This document shows positions 48,716-58,788 of a stretch of DNA of 64,000 nucleotides, in pieces (the stretch's first letter is position 1; every line of letters starts with the position of its first letter). This DNA is from Geitlerinema sp. PCC 9228 (lineage in GTDB: Bacteria > Cyanobacteriota > Cyanobacteriia > Cyanobacteriales > PCC-9228): the NCBI RefSeq assembly GCF_001870905.1, contig NZ_LNDC01000100.1:1-64000 (forward strand), written 5' to 3'. Made by a program: the position numbers and the translations under genes. The notes under the pieces were generated by a model. The model saw only the letters and a program-made list of their open reading frames with translations, had not been told where the DNA came from and searched no databases.

Positions 48716-48949
48716 TTGACACTCTCACAAATAGAATTCGTGAGATTCTCGCCCCATCGGGTGTGCCTAGATAGATTAGCTATGAATTGGTCCATCCCCG
48801 GTAACAGGGACCCTCGACGAGCATTTTTCCGCCCTGTTGTGAACGTACTCCAGCACAAATGTAGCACATTTTTGACGGCGGCTAAAGCCGCACGGGTCGC
48901 TTTTCATCCCTGCTTTAAAAAGTCAGAGCTTTCAAGCTCCCGATTCATG
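48716..48949 (+). mobile_element. IS200/IS605-like TnpB-less element, copy A
   Basis: A 234-bp block starting TTGACACTCTCAC and ending GATTCATG. It is about 85-90 percent identical by eye to the reverse complement of 51407-51633. It has a 5' palindrome (CTCACAAAT-AGA-ATTCGTGAG, one mismatch, 48724-48744), the GGTAACAGGGACC segment, and the 3' GCGGC-TAAA-GCCGC and CCCTG/CAGAG hairpins shared with copy 1. No ORF survives. This is consistent with a non-autonomous IS605-group derivative or an omega-RNA-bearing right end; the family is inferred from structure. Confidence 0.6.
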
Positions 48950-49244
48950 CGGTAGAATAAAAAACTTAGCCCAGATCCAAATCGCTGGTCGTTTCTTCAT
49001 AAAAATTCAAATGGTTGTATACCAGATCGCCAAGTAGGCAACTTGGAAAGGACCAGGGTCTTCGCTCGGCAAGAATCAAAACCGTCACAGCGAAAGGAAG
49101 TTTCGATGTTCGGGTGGGGCCAAAGGTGGTCAGTGTCTCGCGCCGCTATATCCCACGCATATTTCGCCATGATGGCTATGGATATGAATGTCAAAGAAGC
49201 CGAATAATGTCAAGGAAATCACCCATGAGGAGGTAGCAGTATCG

Positions 49245-50018
49245 ATGGGTTCTGTGCAAGACCAAATCGTCGCAATTACAGGAGCAAGCAGCGGCATTGG
49301 TGCTTCCTGTGCCAAATATTTTGCGGCTGCCGGTGCCAAGTTGCTGCTAGCGGCGCGCCGTCTGTCGCGTTTGCAGGAGCTAGCTGCGGAACTGCGCCAA
49401 GAATACGATGTTGAGGTAAAAACCATACCTCTAGACGTACGCGATCGCACTCAAGTAGAAAATGCCATTGAATCTTTACCCCCCGAATGGCGAAATATTG
49501 AAATTTTAATTAACAATGCTGGTTTGAGCCGCGGTCGCGATCCCCTGCAAGACGGTCACTACCAAGATTGGGAGGAAATGATCGATACCAATGTTAAGGG
49601 ATTGCTATACGTTTCCCGCGCGGTTCTTACCGATATGGTGGCACGCAACAGCGGTCATATTGTCAATATTGGTTCTATTGCCGGTCGCCAACCCTATCCC
49701 GGGGGCAATGTCTACTGCGGTTCCAAGGCAGCTGTGAAATCCATTACCGAAGGGTTGAAACAGGATTTGCTGGGAACGGCGATTAAAGTAACCTGCATCG
49801 AACCGGGATTGGTGGAAACGGAATTTAGCCAGGTTCGCTTCCACGGCGATACGGAACGCGCCAAAAAGACCTACGAGGGTCTTACACCGCTCACGCCAGA
49901 CGATATTGCTGATGTCATTTTGTTTGTCGTCACCCGAGCTGCCCACGTCAACATCAGCGATATGTTGGTTCTTCCTGTAGACCAAGCGACAGCCACTATG
50001 ACACACCGGCAACAGTGA
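49245..50018 (+). CDS. Short-chain dehydrogenase/reductase (YdfG-like)
   Basis: A 257-aa classical SDR: ITGASSGIGASCA (NADP-binding Gly motif), AARRLSRL (Arg residues favouring NADP), NNAG, catalytic Ser in NIGSIAGRQPYPG, YCGSKAAVK (Tyr-x3-Lys) and EPGLVETEFSQVRF. The pattern is closest to the YdfG/3-hydroxy acid dehydrogenase group, but substrate cannot be fixed. ATG 49245 follows GAGGAGG (49227-49233). The gene lies within the DNA bracketed by the two inverted IS-like copies and points toward the apyrase gene. Confidence 0.88.
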   Translation: MGSVQDQIVAITGASSGIGASCAKYFAAAGAKLLLAARRLSRLQELAAELRQEYDVEVKTIPLDVRDRTQVENAIESLPPEWRNIEILINNAGLSRGRDPLQDGHYQDWEEMIDTNVKGLLYVSRAVLTDMVARNSGHIVNIGSIAGRQPYPGGNVYCGSKAAVKSITEGLKQDLLGTAIKVTCIEPGLVETEFSQVRFHGDTERAKKTYEGLTPLTPDDIADVILFVVTRAAHVNISDMLVLPVDQATATMTHRQQ

Positions 50019-50126
50019 GGAAGAAAAAAAGATAGCAACAAGGGATGTGCCTGTTATTCGGGTTGAAAAATTGGGTACGTCAAGCCACTTCTTTAAAAAT
50101 ATGCAATAGACAATCGGGGATGTTTC

Positions 50127-50268
50127 TAGGGGCGTAACGCGTAAGCGCCCCTACAGCCAGGGCAATTGGAACATTCCAGACAATCGTTGTTTCTCAGAAA
50201 TGGGATCGACCTACAAAATATCGGGGTAGTACCCCCCACGAAAGGAGCAACCCTGGTGTAGTTGCCCC
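50127..50268. repeat. Cluster of three short palindromes
   Basis: The 360-nt gap between the SDR and apyrase genes contains TAGGGGCG...CGCCCCTA (50127-50153), GGGGTAGTACCCC (50223-50235) and GGAGCAAC...GTTGCCCC (50244-50268). They are REP-like hairpins sharing GGGGC/GCCCC cores, and lie where two convergent transcripts would end. No gene is visible in the gap. Confidence 0.55.
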
Positions 50269-50378: not shown

Positions 50379-51374
50379 TCAAACAATTTCTATGCCTTCG
50401 CACTTATAATTGCCTAAAAAAATCTCCTCGCTGAGCAAGTCTCCATTTAAATGAAAACAGAAGATATACGTTTCGGTGCGATCGCCGCATTCCAGGCTTT
50501 TGAGAGCCACGCATTCCTCGGGATGTCCGGGAATAAACTTAATGGAAGAAACCCCGCGTTCGGGGATACAATCGCCTATCCTACGCACTTGGATATCCTG
50601 AAACGTCTCATCAGCCACAATCAACGTATTGCTGCCGCGATCGCGTTCGTCGGCTTCCTCATCAAACGGTTCAAAACTTACCTTCCGGGGAAAAAAATAC
50701 CAAAGTTGCTTGCCTGGATGCCACTCCGCTGCTTCGTGGGTGAGATATCCCTGACTGGAATCAACTCCCACCGCGCGTCGCATAGCTTCATAGCAATCGT
50801 GCCAGTTGGCGCTATGAATGCGATAGTCCGGGTCCACAAACTTCACCCACTCCAGTTCGCCGGTTTGTACGTTGCCTTTGTCATCCGTAGTTACCCTGCC
50901 GTGGCTGCCTACAACCAATTGGTCGCCTTTGAGGGTTGCCCACTCGGCTTTAAACCCTTTAAATTTCTCGTCGCCGCTGCCAGTTATCAAAATATTGCGG
51001 GGGATTAACTCGTGTTCGTGGCGAATCTCGCAAATCAACCCCGTGCGATCGTCAAGGGCAATTAATTTGTCGCCAAAGCGGACCAACTCCGAAAACTCAG
51101 CTCCGCGACCGGCTTCGGCAATAAGACTAAGGAGATGGTTGCGTCCACCTTGGGTTTCGGGAACTTCTTCAAAAGAATAGCTGACTTTTCCAGTACTCGG
51201 ATCCAAAGTACGATACATGCGATCGTAGCGTAGGAGAGACTGCCAAGCAATCTGCCCGTCTTCTAATTCTACCTGCGAATCCAAATCTTCATCCGTGACA
51301 ATGGCAACGTTATAGGTGGATGTATCCGGGCTATAACGAGCCAGGCGCTGTTCGTCGAGATGCTCGCCTAACAT
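50379..51374 (-). CDS. Apyrase / calcium-activated nucleotidase family (CANT1-like)
   Basis: A 331-aa protein matching the soluble calcium-activated nucleotidase family (Pfam apyrase, PF06079) known from human CANT1 and blood-feeding arthropods. Recognisable blocks are ELVRFGDKLIALDDRTG (96-112), FKGFKAEWATLK (138-149), GYLTHEAAEW (209-218), WYFFPRKVS (225-233), DERDRGSNTL (242-251), SSIKFIPGH (276-284) and KCEGIEIV at the end. The family hydrolyses nucleoside di- and triphosphates with Ca2+. Unlike CANT1 it has no signal peptide or anchor, so it should be cytosolic unless exported by another route. It lies inside the inverted IS-remnant island, convergent with the SDR gene. Confidence 0.85.
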   Translation of the reverse strand: MLGEHLDEQRLARYSPDTSTYNVAIVTDEDLDSQVELEDGQIAWQSLLRYDRMYRTLDPSTGKVSYSFEEVPETQGGRNHLLSLIAEAGRGAEFSELVRFGDKLIALDDRTGLICEIRHEHELIPRNILITGSGDEKFKGFKAEWATLKGDQLVVGSHGRVTTDDKGNVQTGELEWVKFVDPDYRIHSANWHDCYEAMRRAVGVDSSQGYLTHEAAEWHPGKQLWYFFPRKVSFEPFDEEADERDRGSNTLIVADETFQDIQVRRIGDCIPERGVSSIKFIPGHPEECVALKSLECGDRTETYIFCFHLNGDLLSEEIFLGNYKCEGIEIV

Positions 51375-51406
51375 AGTGTCTCCTGCAAAGGTTTGACGAA
51401 AAAAGA

Positions 51407-51633
51407 CGGGAACTTGAAAGCCCTGCCTCTTTCCCAGCAGGGATGAAAAGCGACCCGTGCGGCTTTAGCCGCCGTCAAAATGTGCTACAGTTACATGAAA
51501 GTACGTCCACAATGGGGCGGAAAAATGCTCGTCGAGGGTCCCTGTTGCCGGGGATGGACTAGTTCGTAGCTAATCTATCTAGGCACACCCAATGAAGCGA
51601 GAATCTCACGAATAGAATTCGTGAGAGTGTCAA
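51407..51633 (-). mobile_element. IS200/IS605-like TnpB-less element, copy B (inverted)
   Basis: Minus-strand copy of the 48716-48949 element. Its outer end carries a perfect 9-bp stem CTCACGAAT-AGA-ATTCGTGAG (51605-51625); the inner part has GCGGCTAAAGCCGC and CCCTG/CAGGG stems. The last bases diverge from GATTCATG. With copy A it forms a 2.9-kb inverted pair around the SDR and apyrase genes. It starts 32 nt upstream of the apyrase ATG and therefore may supply or disrupt that promoter. Confidence 0.6.
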
Positions 51634-51717: not shown

Positions 51718-52596
51718 CTATTGTGGTTGGCTGCTAGCCGGCGATCCCTCTAACACTGAAAGCGCCGATGCGGGTTCAAAACGAGAGGTTTGTTGGTTTT
51801 CCGGTGCTATACAGCAATCCAACAGCGGTTGCTGAGCAATGTCACCTAGGGCAACCGTATCTTGCTGCAGTAAATGAACCCAGGTGTCCTGAACGGCTTG
51901 ATTGTTTGGTTGTTGGCGTTTCAGCTGCGCTACAATTTCCGTGGTTTCGTGCCAAATGCCATTTTCCGCGTAGGCTTGAGCTTTGGCTAGAGGTGTTTCG
52001 GCGGCAGCGAGTTGCCGTTGCAGTTGGTCACTTTCTTCCACCCGTTGCAACCGACCGAAAGCTACAATGTCTTGCAAGCGGTCTTCTGGTTCGCAGATGG
52101 CGGCTACCGACCAGCGGTATTGTTCGCCCACTTGCAGCGGAGGTGCGGTTTCTGGTAGGGAAAAGCTGATAATCCCGGGTGTTTCCCCCACTTCTAGGGT
52201 TTGGCGGTAGGTATAGGTTTCGGAAGCATTTCGAATGGTAAATTCTACTTTCTGGGCGCTGGTTTGCGATAGGTACGCGAAGAAAGTGGGACGTTCGGAA
52301 ACGGTCATTCCCGTTTTGTTTTGGGGCAACAGTAGGGCAACTGTGGTCATGTTGGCAGAGCCGTTGTTGCTGGCTGTGGGGGCTTCACAACCACCGCGCG
52401 TACCACCACCAGCGGTTTGTTGTGGTCCTCCTTCGGTGGGAGGTAAATCAAAGTGAATCTGAGTGGCTTTTTCTAGGGAGTTGGCAGCGGTGGTTTGCGC
52501 GCGTGCGGAACTGCCCGCCTGGGGGAAATTTCCGATGCCCATGGTGCCTGCCAAGACAATTGTGGATAGATAAATTGGGAGTTTGCGAGCTTTCAT
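51718..52596 (-). CDS. DUF928 family exported protein
   Basis: A 292-aa protein with a signal peptide (LPIYLSTIVLAGTMGIG...SARAQ), a Gly/Thr-rich segment, and the DUF928 core: TTVALLLPQNKTGMTVSERPTFFAYL, then PPLQVGEQYRWSVAAICEPEDR and a helical C-terminus. DUF928 is a cyanobacterial family of unknown function often found near CHAT-TPR and filamentous-haemagglutinin genes; both follow here, but upstream in transcription order and 886 nt away. Two Cys pairs suggest disulfides in the periplasm. Confidence 0.85.
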   Translation of the reverse strand: MKARKLPIYLSTIVLAGTMGIGNFPQAGSSARAQTTAANSLEKATQIHFDLPPTEGGPQQTAGGGTRGGCEAPTASNNGSANMTTVALLLPQNKTGMTVSERPTFFAYLSQTSAQKVEFTIRNASETYTYRQTLEVGETPGIISFSLPETAPPLQVGEQYRWSVAAICEPEDRLQDIVAFGRLQRVEESDQLQRQLAAAETPLAKAQAYAENGIWHETTEIVAQLKRQQPNNQAVQDTWVHLLQQDTVALGDIAQQPLLDCCIAPENQQTSRFEPASALSVLEGSPASSQPQ

Positions 52597-53482
52597 CAGT
52601 TTACCTTCTCAATTGTGGAATTGTGCTGCGTTCTGATAATACACTCGGAGAGGTGGGAAGATTTTGGCGATGGTAACAAAGCACCGGGGCTTTTAAAACC
52701 ATTCATGGTGGCAAACATCTTTTCAAGTTTGCCGATAACGCAGAGAAGAATCACTGGTTTTTGTCGATTTTCTGAATATTCTGAATATGTTGCTATTGTT
52801 CCGGTTGTCGTACGGGTGGCACGACGATAAAAGATAAAAACACGGTGATGGTTCTTGGTTTGACAACATCCCTAGTGCGGAGATCCCCCACAAAATTGCT
52901 TCGGTGTTTGGGTAGATACTGGTAGATGCTGGGTGGGGTTGGTTTTCTTCCGGGTGTTTTTACGGTTCCCCTAGTTGTTGCCCCCAACCCGATTCCGAGT
53001 TAGGGAATTTTCATCTTACACTATATTATAAAAGCTGGTGCCCAAATAAAAAAGCCCCTGTTTGTGACAAAACCGTAATTGTCCCCTGATTTTTGTTAAA
53101 AATCAGTAAAGATGCTCCCGGTGAGATTAGGTTTTTTTAGGAATTCCTGCAATTTTGGCTGCGATTGTATTCCGTGGGAGCATTTTTTGGTAGGCGATCG
53201 CGTTTCCCGTTCCGGCCAGCTCGATAAAAATGCCTACAATCGTCCCTTCCCTACTGGTTTTGATACCATCAGAGGGCATGGGATGAGACTTTTTTCCCTG
53301 AGGTGGCTTCCCTTTTTTTTAATCGATCGATTTTTGGAAACGACAGGAGCAATTTAATGGTTTTTAAAATAACTTGGCACACCAAGTATCTAATTCGTTT
53401 TGATACCATACCCTGCCTTAAATGTCAATCCATTTTTGGATAAAATTTCACCTCTCCCAGTGCGTGTAGAAACCACAACAGG
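52597..53482. other. 886-nt intergenic region between DUF928 and CHAT genes
   Basis: No credible gene: short frames here lack ribosome sites and protein-like composition. Visible structure is a perfect 9-bp stem CTGATTTTT-GTT-AAAAATCAG (53086-53106), which could end the CHAT transcript or act upstream of DUF928, and AT-rich promoter-like sequence around 52800-53030. It separates DUF928 from the haemagglutinin-CHAT pair, so DUF928 probably has its own promoter. Confidence 0.5.
53086..53106. terminator. AT-rich perfect hairpin
   Basis: CTGATTTTT and AAAAATCAG form a 9-bp stem with a GTT loop. It is about 380 nt beyond the CHAT stop, in the gap before DUF928. Confidence 0.35.
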
Positions 53483-56122
53483 CTACAGCCAGTTGCCTAC
53501 CAACACAAAAGGTGCCCAGTAAAAGGGATGGCTAATTTCCTCCATCAAAAATAATTGGGCGCGGCGTAGGGCTTCGGCTTTGGCGATCTGATTTTGAGAC
53601 AATTCCTGGTAAAACTTATTCATTAAACGAGCGGTGGAATCATCCTGAACCGACCAGAGGGTAGCTGCGGTACTGCGGGCACCGGAACGCACAGCCAATC
53701 CTGCCAATCCCAAAGCAGCGTATTTATCCCCGGCAGCGGTTTCGCAGGCACTCAACACCAACAGGTCGATGGGAGGCGTATCCGGTTGAAAGCGCGATCG
53801 CAGCAAAGCTTCCAACTCCTTCGCTTGAATTTTTTCCTCCCACGTTAGAATAAACGTCTGTTCCGGTTCGGAACTAAACTGCCCGTGGGTAGCCAAATGC
53901 ACGATGGGAGAGGGATTTTCCTGGATACTTTTCTGCAAAGACGCCTTGGTAAATCCGCGGTTGAGCAGCGTACGTGCCGATACCTGTTGGGAAATTTCTG
54001 AGATTTCCCGTTCCACCGCCGGCAAAGGAGAAAATCCCTGAGTAGATTCGCTAATCCCTGCCGCGATCGCGCGCGCGTCTACCTGAGTTTGGGCATCCGC
54101 CACCAATAGCTGCAACCCCGGCGTCAGAGCGATCGCATATTTCTCCAACAAATACTGTTGTCCGTCGTACAAAGCCGCCATGGGAATGTTGCGCAACGCC
54201 CCATCCAACACAAACACCAACGTCTGCACCTGATTTTGCTGCAAATCTGCCTCCACCGGTCGCACCAACCAATCGTAAATTTCGCGGGCTACCGGTTCGC
54301 GGTCGGAACGGAAAGAATTGGGGCGCAGCGACTGGCGCATGCGATTGATAGTCTGTTCGGCCTCGGCGGCAGCAATGGGAGTAGCAAAGTGTTGCAGGGG
54401 TTGCCCGGGAATGGAAACCACCACCTCCAACCGTTGGGGAAGGATAATGGGATAAATCACCGCCGCCTCGGGGTCTACGCTGTCAATTTTTTGGGGGCGC
54501 ACCTCCAAACAGGCTTCCCGGAAAAAATTATCCAACTCCGCCAGTTGCAGTGACTCAATGGTATCCAAAGCTTCCCGCAGCTCCGCTTGGGTGGGATGGT
54601 TTTCCGGGCGCAGCAACAAATCCACCAACTGCCGGTACACCGGTTCCACGCGATCGCGGAAGGAAAATTGCACATCTTGGTTGGTAGCCACCAGTTCGCC
54701 GCGCAGGTCGTTGAGGGTACGCACCGCTTCTCGATACGCCGCGATCGCGCGCTCGGTCTTTTCTAACTGCTGCCAAATGCGCCCCAGCTGCCATTCCCAT
54801 TGATAGGCAATATCCTCACCAACGACTTGCGACGCCAAAGCCAGTGCCTCCTCAGTCAGTAACCTCGCCTCGGAATACTGCTGTTTTTCCTCGTAGAGAT
54901 GGGCTAAGCGACCCAAAGCATAGGATTGAGCGCGCCTATCCCCCAACTGCCGTGCCTGTTGCACCGCTACCGCTAGGATTTCCGCAGTTTCCCGCATGTT
55001 GGGCAAATCCTGCAATTGGCTATCCATAGCGCGCAGGCGATTGATATATTCCGCCAGCTGAATGCGGGCATATACCCCTGTAGAAGCTATGGGCAGCGCC
55101 GCGACGTGTTCTTGAATGGTAGGCAGCAACGCCACCGCTGAGGAAGTTCGTTCCAGCAGCAGCAACACTTCCAGGCGATTGAGCTGTGCTTGCAACCACA
55201 AAGGACAATCCCGAGATTGTTTTTGGGGCGAACAGCTTTCCACTGCCTGTTGGTAAGCTATCAACACTTGCTGCACTTGGCGGTTTTCCAGTTGGGGGAA
55301 ATTGTTATTCACCGACGAGGAAGACCGGGAGAGTTGCCGCGTAAGTTCTGCGCGCATGGTGTTGCCCAATCCCAGCCAGGCAGCTTGCGTTTGGGCGTTC
55401 ATGTTATTTTGATAAGCAACAGTACGTGCTTTTGCCAGCACTTCTTTCGATGGTTCCAGATTGCCCGTCAGCCGCAGGGTATTCCCCAAATTCAGCCACG
55501 CCGCCACTTGCAGTTCCCGATCGGATAAATTTTCGATGGGCGATCGCACTTTTTCCAGAATTTCCTGGGCGCGGCGGTACATGCCCAAAGCTTGTAGAGC
55601 TTTCCCTTGGTTGATTTGCGCCCCAATTTCTCCCACCCGGTCTTCGGCGAGGGTGTAGGTTTTTGCCGCTGCTTCCCAACGATCCAAGGCCCCCTGGTAG
55701 TCGCCGCGGTTGTAGTTGATTTCGCCGGCAATATTGTAAATTTTGGCTAAGATCTGCTGGTTGACCGGAGGTTTTTGGGCGATTGCCAACGCTTGCAATA
55801 GGGCATCTTCTGCTGGTTCCCACTGCCCCAGTTTGTGATAGGCTAGTGCCAAATATCCCTGCACTTGAGCCTGTTGGTCTTTCTCGGATGAATCCAACCG
55901 CGCTGCTACCTGCTGCCATATTTGCAATGCCGCCTCAATGCGTCCGTTTTGGTACAATCTTTGTCCCGATGCCACCGAAACCATCGGTGGGCTGCCTTGG
56001 GTTTGGGAGGGTTGGGGCATCGCCGCTTCGGAAACCACTTGTACGCCCAAAGCGATCGCCCATCCCACAACCAACAACAACAGCCATTTACCTACTTTTT
56101 TCACCCCAGCCGAAACCTTCAT
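53483..56122 (-). CDS. Exported TPR-CHAT protein (caspase-like protease)
   Basis: About 879 aa (883 from the GTG at 56134). The N-terminus is a signal peptide or anchor (KWLLLLVVGWAIALGVQVVSEAA). Residues about 50-480 are TPR units; the C-terminal third is a CHAT domain with the His/Cys dyad in HLATHG (about His750) and LSACETAAGD (about Cys797), numbered from the GTG, followed by the GARSTAATLWSV block. CHAT is a caspase-like peptidase fold. The GTG start would overlap the upstream haemagglutinin stop by 4 nt (GTGA); I list the ATG at 56122, 8 nt after that stop. Coupled expression with an exported haemagglutinin suggests the two work together. Confidence 0.88.
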   Translation of the reverse strand: MKVSAGVKKVGKWLLLLVVGWAIALGVQVVSEAAMPQPSQTQGSPPMVSVASGQRLYQNGRIEAALQIWQQVAARLDSSEKDQQAQVQGYLALAYHKLGQWEPAEDALLQALAIAQKPPVNQQILAKIYNIAGEINYNRGDYQGALDRWEAAAKTYTLAEDRVGEIGAQINQGKALQALGMYRRAQEILEKVRSPIENLSDRELQVAAWLNLGNTLRLTGNLEPSKEVLAKARTVAYQNNMNAQTQAAWLGLGNTMRAELTRQLSRSSSSVNNNFPQLENRQVQQVLIAYQQAVESCSPQKQSRDCPLWLQAQLNRLEVLLLLERTSSAVALLPTIQEHVAALPIASTGVYARIQLAEYINRLRAMDSQLQDLPNMRETAEILAVAVQQARQLGDRRAQSYALGRLAHLYEEKQQYSEARLLTEEALALASQVVGEDIAYQWEWQLGRIWQQLEKTERAIAAYREAVRTLNDLRGELVATNQDVQFSFRDRVEPVYRQLVDLLLRPENHPTQAELREALDTIESLQLAELDNFFREACLEVRPQKIDSVDPEAAVIYPIILPQRLEVVVSIPGQPLQHFATPIAAAEAEQTINRMRQSLRPNSFRSDREPVAREIYDWLVRPVEADLQQNQVQTLVFVLDGALRNIPMAALYDGQQYLLEKYAIALTPGLQLLVADAQTQVDARAIAAGISESTQGFSPLPAVEREISEISQQVSARTLLNRGFTKASLQKSIQENPSPIVHLATHGQFSSEPEQTFILTWEEKIQAKELEALLRSRFQPDTPPIDLLVLSACETAAGDKYAALGLAGLAVRSGARSTAATLWSVQDDSTARLMNKFYQELSQNQIAKAEALRRAQLFLMEEISHPFYWAPFVLVGNWL

Positions 56123-56130
56123 AACCACCG

Positions 56131-58788
56131 TCACCGTTCGTCACAACCAATAGAAAAATACCAATTTGTCTTTTGTTCTCCGGACGCTACCAATTCTACC
56201 GTGCCGTCTTGGTGGCGTCTCCAGCCGCTGGCTTCTTGAATGCCATGGCGAACGGTCGCTGTGGCACCAAAAGCCGGCGATCGCTGGTGGCTGCGCCAAT
56301 CCATCCAAGTAGAAAATTGGTTGAGGCTTTCTTGCGGTGCAGGGGGCAATCCGCCATATCCGGTCATCACAAATTCGTTTCCCTCAATCCGCTGGCAGGG
56401 GGTGGCCACAATTTGCTTGGGTTGGTTCAAATCGTTGTCCACCTGTAACAGCCCTGCTTCTGGGTTCACTTCCGGCGAGTTCACGGCTACCTGACCATCA
56501 ACGCCAAATTGAGAACTGGCGGTTATCTGACTGTCGGGAGATAGGAGCATCCCTGAGGTGGTAATTTGAATGCTACCACCATCGCCGGCGATCGCATTAG
56601 CCGTAATATCGCTATTTTCCAAACTGGCTAGGGTCCTGGTGGCAATGGCAATGTTCCCCCCTGGTTCGGTACCGGTGGCGTTGGTGGAAATTTGGCTGTT
56701 TCCCCGCAGCAGCAAATTGTCGGTTTGCAAGTTGATATTGCCCAATCCGGCCGCACTGTCGGCGCGCAGGTGTCCGCCGCTATCGAGACGCATCTCCCCA
56801 GTTTCAATCCCCATGGATCCGGCATTGCCGCTGCCGGTACTGCTGACAGTAATTTCCCCATGCGATCGCAGTTCGATGTTCCCCGCGCTCACTCGTAGCT
56901 GACCGGCGTGACCGCTGCCTTCGGAGGAAGTGGACAAACCGCTGGGAAATTGGGTTTGGCTCTCGTCTCGGAAAAAGTCCAAATCGGCTTCGGGAATCTC
57001 GCGCGCGGGAACTGCCCCGGATACCAACAAGCGATCGCCGACACGCACCCTCACATCACCGCCGTCACCGCTTTCAAAAGCGGCCGAACTCACTTGAGCG
57101 CCATTTTGCAACACCAAACTCGGCGTTTCTAACCTCACTTGACCGCCATCGCCCGTCCCCACAGTACTGGTGGTAATAGCTGCCGGAATCCCTTCGCTGC
57201 TGGTGCCGTTGAGGTAAATTTCGGAAGTGGCGCGCACGGTAATATTGCCTCCCCTGCCCTGGGTACTTTCGCTGCTGGTGGCTGTGGAGAGACGACCCCC
57301 GTTAGCCAGGACCAATCGGTTGGTTTCTAGGTTGACGTTGCCCCCACGACCGGTAGCACTCGCTTCTACGCTGGCGGCAATGGTACTTTCAAAGCTGCCA
57401 TCCGCCCCGCGGACCTCGATGGTATCGCTGGCTCGAATGTCAATAGCCCCCGCCTTGCCCCTGCCTTGGGTAAAAGCCAAGATTTGCGTACCGCCGCTGA
57501 TGGTGAGGGTGTCGGTGGCGATGACAATGTTGCCGCCATCACCGGTAGCGCCGCGAAAGCTGGAACCAGACCAAAAAGACCGGCCGCTGGTTTCTACGGT
57601 TTGCGCCTGTACCTGCAGCGTTCCCGCATCCCCCGCGCCCAAGGTATCGGTGCCAATGATGGCCAAATCCGCAACCACGAAGCGTTGGGTTTCCACTTGC
57701 AAGCGACCGCCGCTGCCGGTGGCTTCCGGGGCAACGGCGGCAAATACGCTGCTGGCAAAGCCTTCCGGACTTTCTCCCACTACTTCCACTGCTTCCTGTG
57801 CCTGCAAATACACTCCCCGACCGCTACCGTTTCCCAGAGTATCGGCGAGAATGGAAGACCCATCTCGCAGCAAAATGTGCGATCCCTGCAGGCGCACGAA
57901 ACCACCGCCGTTGCCGCTGGCTTCGAGGGAGGCGGTTTTTTCCAGCAAAATCCGATTCCAAGTGGCGATGTTTTGGGGTTGAAATTCCCAACCCCTCCGT
58001 GTTTCCACCCAGCGCATGCGCCCGCTACCGAGGCTGGCGAGTTCGATTTCGCCCCCACTGGCGGTGAGGTTGCCCCCGGAAAGCACGATATTGCCGCCGA
58101 TGAGGGCGAGGGTGGCTTGGGGGGAGACGGCAAATCCGGTGGGTCGTTCTTCTCGGACGGTGGCTAGGGAATTGTCGAAAAATAGGTTGTTGCCAGGACC
58201 GAATACGCGAATGTCGCCGGCGTTGCTGCCGACTTGCAAGCCTATGGGGGTGGATATGGTGAGTAAGGGGGGACTGGCTGGATTGGTGGCATGGAATTGC
58301 GTTCCGTCAGCAAATTCTAAGCTGCGGGCGGTGGTCCCTAAGAAAGAACCGCCGATGTCGAGCTGGGCGTTGCTGCCGATGGTAATGCCGTTGGGATTGA
58401 TGAAAATGAGGTTGGCGCTGCCGTTAGCCTGTAGGGTTCCTTCGAGGACGGAGATGCGATCGCCGGTTACCCGTGTAATGATATTTTTGATGGTATTCGC
58501 GTTTTGGAAGGTGGCGATGGTTTCCGCTGGCAGGGAAAATTCCTGAAAGCTGTGGAAAAGATTGGCACCGACTGTGGTTCCTCCTGATATTTCTAAGTGA
58601 TTTTGGGCTCGCGTGACTTGAGAGTTTTGCGGCAGGGTGCGATCGGGGACAATTTGAGTAATGATTTGTACGTTTTTGTCGGCAGATGTATGGGGGAATG
58701 GTTCCCGGGCAACAACAGGTGGGCAGCCAAAAGGTGCGATCGCGACAGCTAGGGTACAGGTAGCGAAAAACTGTTGGATGGGGCGCAT
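56131..58788 (-). CDS. Filamentous haemagglutinin-type TPS-domain protein
   Basis: An 885-aa exported protein with a signal peptide (MRPIQQFFATCTLAVAIAPFG...VVA). Residues about 40-330 are the haemagglutination-activity (TPS) domain: GGTTVGANLFHSFQEFSL, RVTGDRISVLEGTLQANGSANLIFINPNGI, FGPGNNLFFDNS. The rest is a parallel beta-helix-like series of G-rich repeats (GDGGNIVIAT, GRGGNVNLET, GDGGQVRLET). This is the secreted partner (TpsA) of a two-partner system; no TpsB transporter gene is in the window. ATG 58788 starts the signal peptide; an ATG at 58851 is possible. It is the first gene of the haemagglutinin-CHAT pair. Confidence 0.88.
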   Translation of the reverse strand: MRPIQQFFATCTLAVAIAPFGCPPVVAREPFPHTSADKNVQIITQIVPDRTLPQNSQVTRAQNHLEISGGTTVGANLFHSFQEFSLPAETIATFQNANTIKNIITRVTGDRISVLEGTLQANGSANLIFINPNGITIGSNAQLDIGGSFLGTTARSLEFADGTQFHATNPASPPLLTISTPIGLQVGSNAGDIRVFGPGNNLFFDNSLATVREERPTGFAVSPQATLALIGGNIVLSGGNLTASGGEIELASLGSGRMRWVETRRGWEFQPQNIATWNRILLEKTASLEASGNGGGFVRLQGSHILLRDGSSILADTLGNGSGRGVYLQAQEAVEVVGESPEGFASSVFAAVAPEATGSGGRLQVETQRFVVADLAIIGTDTLGAGDAGTLQVQAQTVETSGRSFWSGSSFRGATGDGGNIVIATDTLTISGGTQILAFTQGRGKAGAIDIRASDTIEVRGADGSFESTIAASVEASATGRGGNVNLETNRLVLANGGRLSTATSSESTQGRGGNITVRATSEIYLNGTSSEGIPAAITTSTVGTGDGGQVRLETPSLVLQNGAQVSSAAFESGDGGDVRVRVGDRLLVSGAVPAREIPEADLDFFRDESQTQFPSGLSTSSEGSGHAGQLRVSAGNIELRSHGEITVSSTGSGNAGSMGIETGEMRLDSGGHLRADSAAGLGNINLQTDNLLLRGNSQISTNATGTEPGGNIAIATRTLASLENSDITANAIAGDGGSIQITTSGMLLSPDSQITASSQFGVDGQVAVNSPEVNPEAGLLQVDNDLNQPKQIVATPCQRIEGNEFVMTGYGGLPPAPQESLNQFSTWMDWRSHQRSPAFGATATVRHGIQEASGWRRHQDGTVELVASGEQKTNWYFSIGCDER

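Follow-up and report, generated by a model that had tools for sequence, protein, structure and literature searches.

A predicted cytosolic calcium-activated nucleotidase of the CANT1 family in a cyanobacterium, with rare and scattered bacterial relatives

We analysed the first 64,000 nucleotides of contig NZ_LNDC01000100.1 of Geitlerinema sp. PCC 9228, hereafter the window. It encodes an apyrase of the calcium-activated nucleotidase family next to a short-chain dehydrogenase (SDR), in a region with several dispersed repeats (Table 1). The open reading frame has one single match to PF06079 (Apyrase), between residues 38 and 331 of the protein and positions 7 and 291 of the 291 of the profile (E=5.7e-83), with a score of 279 bits for a cut-off of 27. 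The human soluble calcium-activated nucleotidase (CANT1, or SCAN; 1s18) was the only protein of the PDB matched by sequence (E ~3e-55). The gene is present in a single copy in the genome and has no internal stops. It is a real, intact and full-length gene of the CANT1 family, and both searches, together with the structural comparison below, confirm the family assignment made in the initial annotation. Elsewhere in the window, two adjacent genes of one strand encode a DUF928 protein and a TPR-CHAT (caspase-like) protein (51718-56134).

Table 1. Features of the apyrase locus (positions in the window).
Feature	Position	Strand	Remarks
CANT1-type calcium-activated nucleotidase (PF06079)	50379..51374	-	331 aa; aligned calcium-site positions S95, E96, E144, E214, S276, E326
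Shine-Dalgarno sequence AGGAG	51380..51384	-	5 nt before the ATG; supports the assigned start and a signal-less N-terminus
Dispersed non-coding repeat, IS200/IS605-like right end	51393..51633	+	~240 bp; hairpin AATCTCACGAAT-AGA-ATTCGTGAGAGTGTCAA; tens of copies in the genome
Second copy of the IS200/IS605-like repeat	48716..48942	-	87% identity; in inverted orientation, on the far side of the SDR gene
Unrelated dispersed intergenic repeat, downstream of the apyrase	50085..50206	+	~40 copies
Short-chain dehydrogenase (SDR)	49188..50018	+	of cyanobacterial type; 61-68% identity to relatives within the order

Secreted or luminal CANT1-type enzymes have a signal peptide or a membrane anchor, and the apyrase of the window has neither. 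Its start is fixed by the Shine-Dalgarno sequence, which supports this absence, and its N-terminus (MLGEHLDEQRLARYSPDTSTY) is charged and lacks a hydrophobic stretch, with the domain starting around residue 20. None of the 14 bacterial proteins compared, i.e., that of the window and 13 relatives, has a signal peptide. The bacterial relatives have in common the N-terminal motif RLxRY...TDED (R-x-x-RY ... TDED), and the gammaproteobacterial proteins have the same start. Hence, the lack of a signal peptide, already noticed in the initial annotation, holds in all the bacterial homologues compared and is a trait of the branch rather than a local loss.

We modelled the structure with ten bacterial sequences as input (pLDDT 85, pTM 0.87). 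The predicted structure matched the five-bladed propeller of human SCAN (1s18) along ~315 columns, with TM scores of 0.82 (query) and 0.86 (target), 37-38% identity and E ~1e-29. The next matches in the PDB were generic propellers with E above 1e-6, and the search among virus structures returned weak matches to generic propellers and nothing better. The human calcium site, which we take to consist of S168, D169, E215, E284, S345 and E396 (the list of UniProt Q8WVQ1, with residue letters verified on the PDB sequence), aligns in this order with the six positions of Table 1. These are identical across all bacterial proteins long enough to cover them. The expected calcium ligands, whose loss, like that of catalytic residues, had been envisaged in the initial annotation, are retained with one sole change relative to the human protein, D169 to E, which is common to every bacterial protein sampled. 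The arginine altered by the Desbuquois dysplasia mutation p.R300H (PMC3427906) is also kept, as R230. Judging from the alignment, the calcium site looks intact.

The protein has seven cysteines, of which C115, C288 and C325 are conserved in most relatives, and this fits with a cytosolic location. These three residues are specific to bacteria and lie near conserved motifs. Together with the change of D169 to E, and with the lack of any assayed bacterial PF06079 member in the papers searched, they could point to a different substrate, or to a calcium-sensing propeller devoid of nucleotidase activity. We regard this as unlikely because the protein retains nearly all the core motifs and the aligned set of ligands, and because its predicted fold matches that of human SCAN throughout.

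The initial annotation had left room for a family ubiquitous in cyanobacteria. We found PF06079 in only one of the 390 sampled genomes of the class, that of the window itself, and in two of the 391 of the order, the second being a metagenome-assembled genome (MAG) of Halothece. This MAG is 85% complete, and its apyrase lies on a contig of 5890 bases (L010) where it is cut by the contig end. Among the Gammaproteobacteria, four of the 369 sampled genomes encode the family, with 3/61 in Marinobacter and 1/198 in the order of Idiomarina. The named carriers are Marinobacter, Stutzerimonas urumqiensis, Rheinheimera and Idiomarina aquatica, several of which are salt-loving. The family is thus rare and patchy in bacteria, and the nearest relatives of the apyrase are in scattered, often salt-loving bacteria. 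We found no match to the apyrase in PLSDB, INPHARED or IMG/VR, which argues against carriage by plasmids or phages. A previous survey of the family described bacteria as apparently devoid of orthologues (PMC3280346); given the carriers found here, including the gammaproteobacterial ones, this statement is out of date.

The protein of the window is 71-73% identical to that of Halothece and 56-62% identical to those of the Gammaproteobacteria (Marinobacter, Stutzerimonas, Rheinheimera and Idiomarina). Overall, identity with bacterial relatives ranges from 52 to 73%, versus 39% with human CANT1. The trees included the bacterial proteins, with or without the distant human sequence, and left out protists. 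The proteins of the window and of Halothece group together (support 100/96). One gammaproteobacterial protein (G844) joins them with support 96/94 in the tree without the human sequence and 84/30 when it is added. A tree in which G844 was constrained to group with the other Gammaproteobacteria (except the long-branched G970) was marginally rejected (p-AU 0.044), for a group named post hoc with the tree already seen. The proteins of the window, Halothece and G844 have a segment of ~10 residues (167-177 in the window protein) that is missing from the other gammaproteobacterial proteins. The human protein has a similar length at this place, and the segment may therefore be ancestral.

These results bear on the origin of the gene. 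The tree grouping and the absence of the gene from other cyanobacteria favour transfer among bacteria over direct gain from animals. The apyrase has thus probably passed sideways between bacterial phyla, in one direction or the other. The suggestion of a horizontal acquisition made in the initial annotation is therefore supported by the sparse distribution and by the grouping of the window, Halothece and G844, whereas its comparison with animals is misleading as to the source, since the nearest relatives are bacterial. Acquisition straight from a eukaryotic donor (an animal or a protist) would suit a family best known in eukaryotes and once reported absent in bacteria (PMC3280346). We consider it very improbable in view of the much lower identity with the human protein (protists being outside the tree), and of an N-terminus common to the bacterial proteins and lacking a signal peptide.

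The gene might instead have been inherited vertically from an early cyanobacterium and lost in nearly all lineages, with the gammaproteobacterial copies as recipients. We compared this genome with a genome of the genus Halothece by taking reciprocal best hits between the window plus 14 further stretches and 1.2 Mb of the latter. The 40 pairs had a median identity of 56%, and 15% of them were at 71% or more. The identity of the two cyanobacterial apyrases is inside this orthologue range, so that this pair, by itself, would agree with an ancient vertical inheritance. The composition of the gene is also ordinary for the genome (GC 0.499, GC3 in the 49th percentile, codon z in the 14th percentile), which rules out a foreign composition and indicates that the gene did not arrive recently. 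Yet, vertical inheritance demands losses in nearly all sampled cyanobacteria, including eight of the nine genomes of the Halothece family, which makes it rather improbable. We therefore retain an old transfer between bacteria as the preferred origin.

The flanks of the gene had been described as two IS-like remnants supporting its mobility. The repeat within the 343 bases upstream of the apyrase, which stops 18 bp short of the start codon, fits this description: it has the right-end hairpin and the TCAA-like site of the IS200/IS605 type, and it is multicopy with differing flanks (51 matches in the genome, counting pieces). Its copies have in common the right end AATCTCACGAAT-nnn-ATTCGTGAGAGTGTCAA, and their alignment stops at GTGTCAA, beyond which the flanks are unrelated. 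Hairpins with a TCAA-like end are typical of IS200/IS605 elements, and we interpret the repeat as a MITE-like derivative shortened by internal deletion. A copy that ranks among the longest has no long open reading frame. Several copies hold ~150-700 extra internal bases, i.e., longer versions exist, and a further copy was found at C100:98593-98836 (L042). The + strand of the upstream repeat has a strong predicted fold, better than that of shuffled sequences (z -3.8), and the flanks of the apyrase match no known RNA in Rfam. A scan for sigma-70-like promoters between this repeat and the apyrase found none; given the short distance to the ATG, any promoter must be in the repeat or beyond it. The downstream repeat does not fit the description, since no IS features were recognised in it. 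The copies of its family are 77-89% identical and have a palindromic core (GGGGCG...CGCCCC).

The dispersed repeats are thus real, but with dozens of intergenic copies in this genome they are weak evidence for having carried the apyrase. The SDR and the apyrase lie between two copies of the IS200/IS605-like repeat in inverted orientation, and could have moved as one composite element. This is highly unlikely: the SDR is a native cyanobacterial gene, dozens of copies of the repeat are found elsewhere in the genome, and we know of no case in which inverted non-autonomous ends of this kind mobilise the intervening DNA. The data support a repeat-rich, recombination-prone site rather than a demonstrated carrier. 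An SDR also adjoins the apyrase in two Gammaproteobacteria (G844 and G983). These SDRs are just 28-30% identical to that of the window, which is of cyanobacterial type, and this rules out a co-transfer of the two genes. In relatives, the SDR loci (3.8 kb each) had no neighbours in common with the window.

The family and the fold lead us to infer an activity and a role. The enzyme would hydrolyse UDP and GDP (then ADP) to the monophosphate and phosphate when calcium sits in the centre of the five-bladed propeller. A protist member of the family, CApy of Cryptosporidium, is active only when calcium is present and prefers UDP and GDP (PMC3280346). Free calcium in the cytosol is around 100 nM, and in Anabaena it rises transiently upon osmotic stress and raised external calcium (PMC4915528). 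The apyrase would be nearly idle in the resting cytosol and become active when calcium rises, e.g., upon osmotic stress, light-dark shifts or injury. It might then trim the UDP and GDP left by glycosyltransferases, or recycle phosphate. The simplest reading is that of a conditional nucleoside diphosphate phosphatase in the cytosol. The weakest step is the physiological role in trimming UDP and GDP, which we see as doubtful; human CANT1 is thought to clear UDP that would inhibit glycosyltransferases (PMC3427906). PhoD-like phosphatase genes are found at 10 kb or less from three gammaproteobacterial apyrases, and hint at phosphate salvage as an alternative role. These genes are related to each other (L003 3901-5874, L009 4106-5989 and L059 13429-15384; two in Marinobacter and one in Idiomarina). 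A Na/Ca exchanger gene is also found nearby in L003. Rheinheimera soli and Idiomarina have a common conserved gene pair, a glycosyltransferase and another gene, directly adjoining the apyrase (L008 3905-7190, L009 6949-10238).

Taken together, we give a probability of roughly 70% to the following reading: the gene is intact and encodes a cytosolic, calcium-activated nucleoside diphosphatase of the CANT1 type from a sparse bacterial branch, and this cyanobacterial lineage obtained it through an old horizontal transfer from, or with, salt-associated Gammaproteobacteria. A bolder and unlikely version is a bacterial hydrolase gated by cytosolic calcium, in which a calcium spike would directly change the UDP and GDP pools. 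If true, it would be one of the few candidate enzymatic effectors of calcium in a cyanobacterium, as well as in scattered salt-associated bacteria. CANT1 enzymes have so far been treated as proteins of the eukaryotic secretory pathway or of saliva. An intact and consistently signal-less bacterial branch, found across two phyla, offers simple enzymes for assay and raises the question of the role of a calcium-switched nucleotidase where calcium is normally so low.

The apyrase of the window adds to a bacterial branch of the family that has been little described. It resembles human CANT1/SCAN-1 (1s18, 2h2n, 2h2u) in the fold along its whole length, in the aligned positions of the calcium site, in the equivalent of R300 and in the conserved motifs DDRTG, KGFKAEW, HE.A.W and EGIE. 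It differs from it by the lack of a signal or anchor sequence, the change of D169 to E, the free cysteines and the N-terminal RLxRY...TDED. CApy (PMC3280346) is of the same family, and its calcium-dependent hydrolysis of UDP and GDP is the activity that would be expected, by analogy, of the window protein. In contrast, CApy is, by its published description, an ecto-apyrase with a surface or apical location. The gammaproteobacterial PF06079 proteins (Marinobacter, Stutzerimonas, Rheinheimera and Idiomarina) are similarly signal-less and have the same start, but apart from G844 they lack the segment of ~10 residues, and they are encoded among other neighbours, some with a PhoD-like phosphatase within a few kb.
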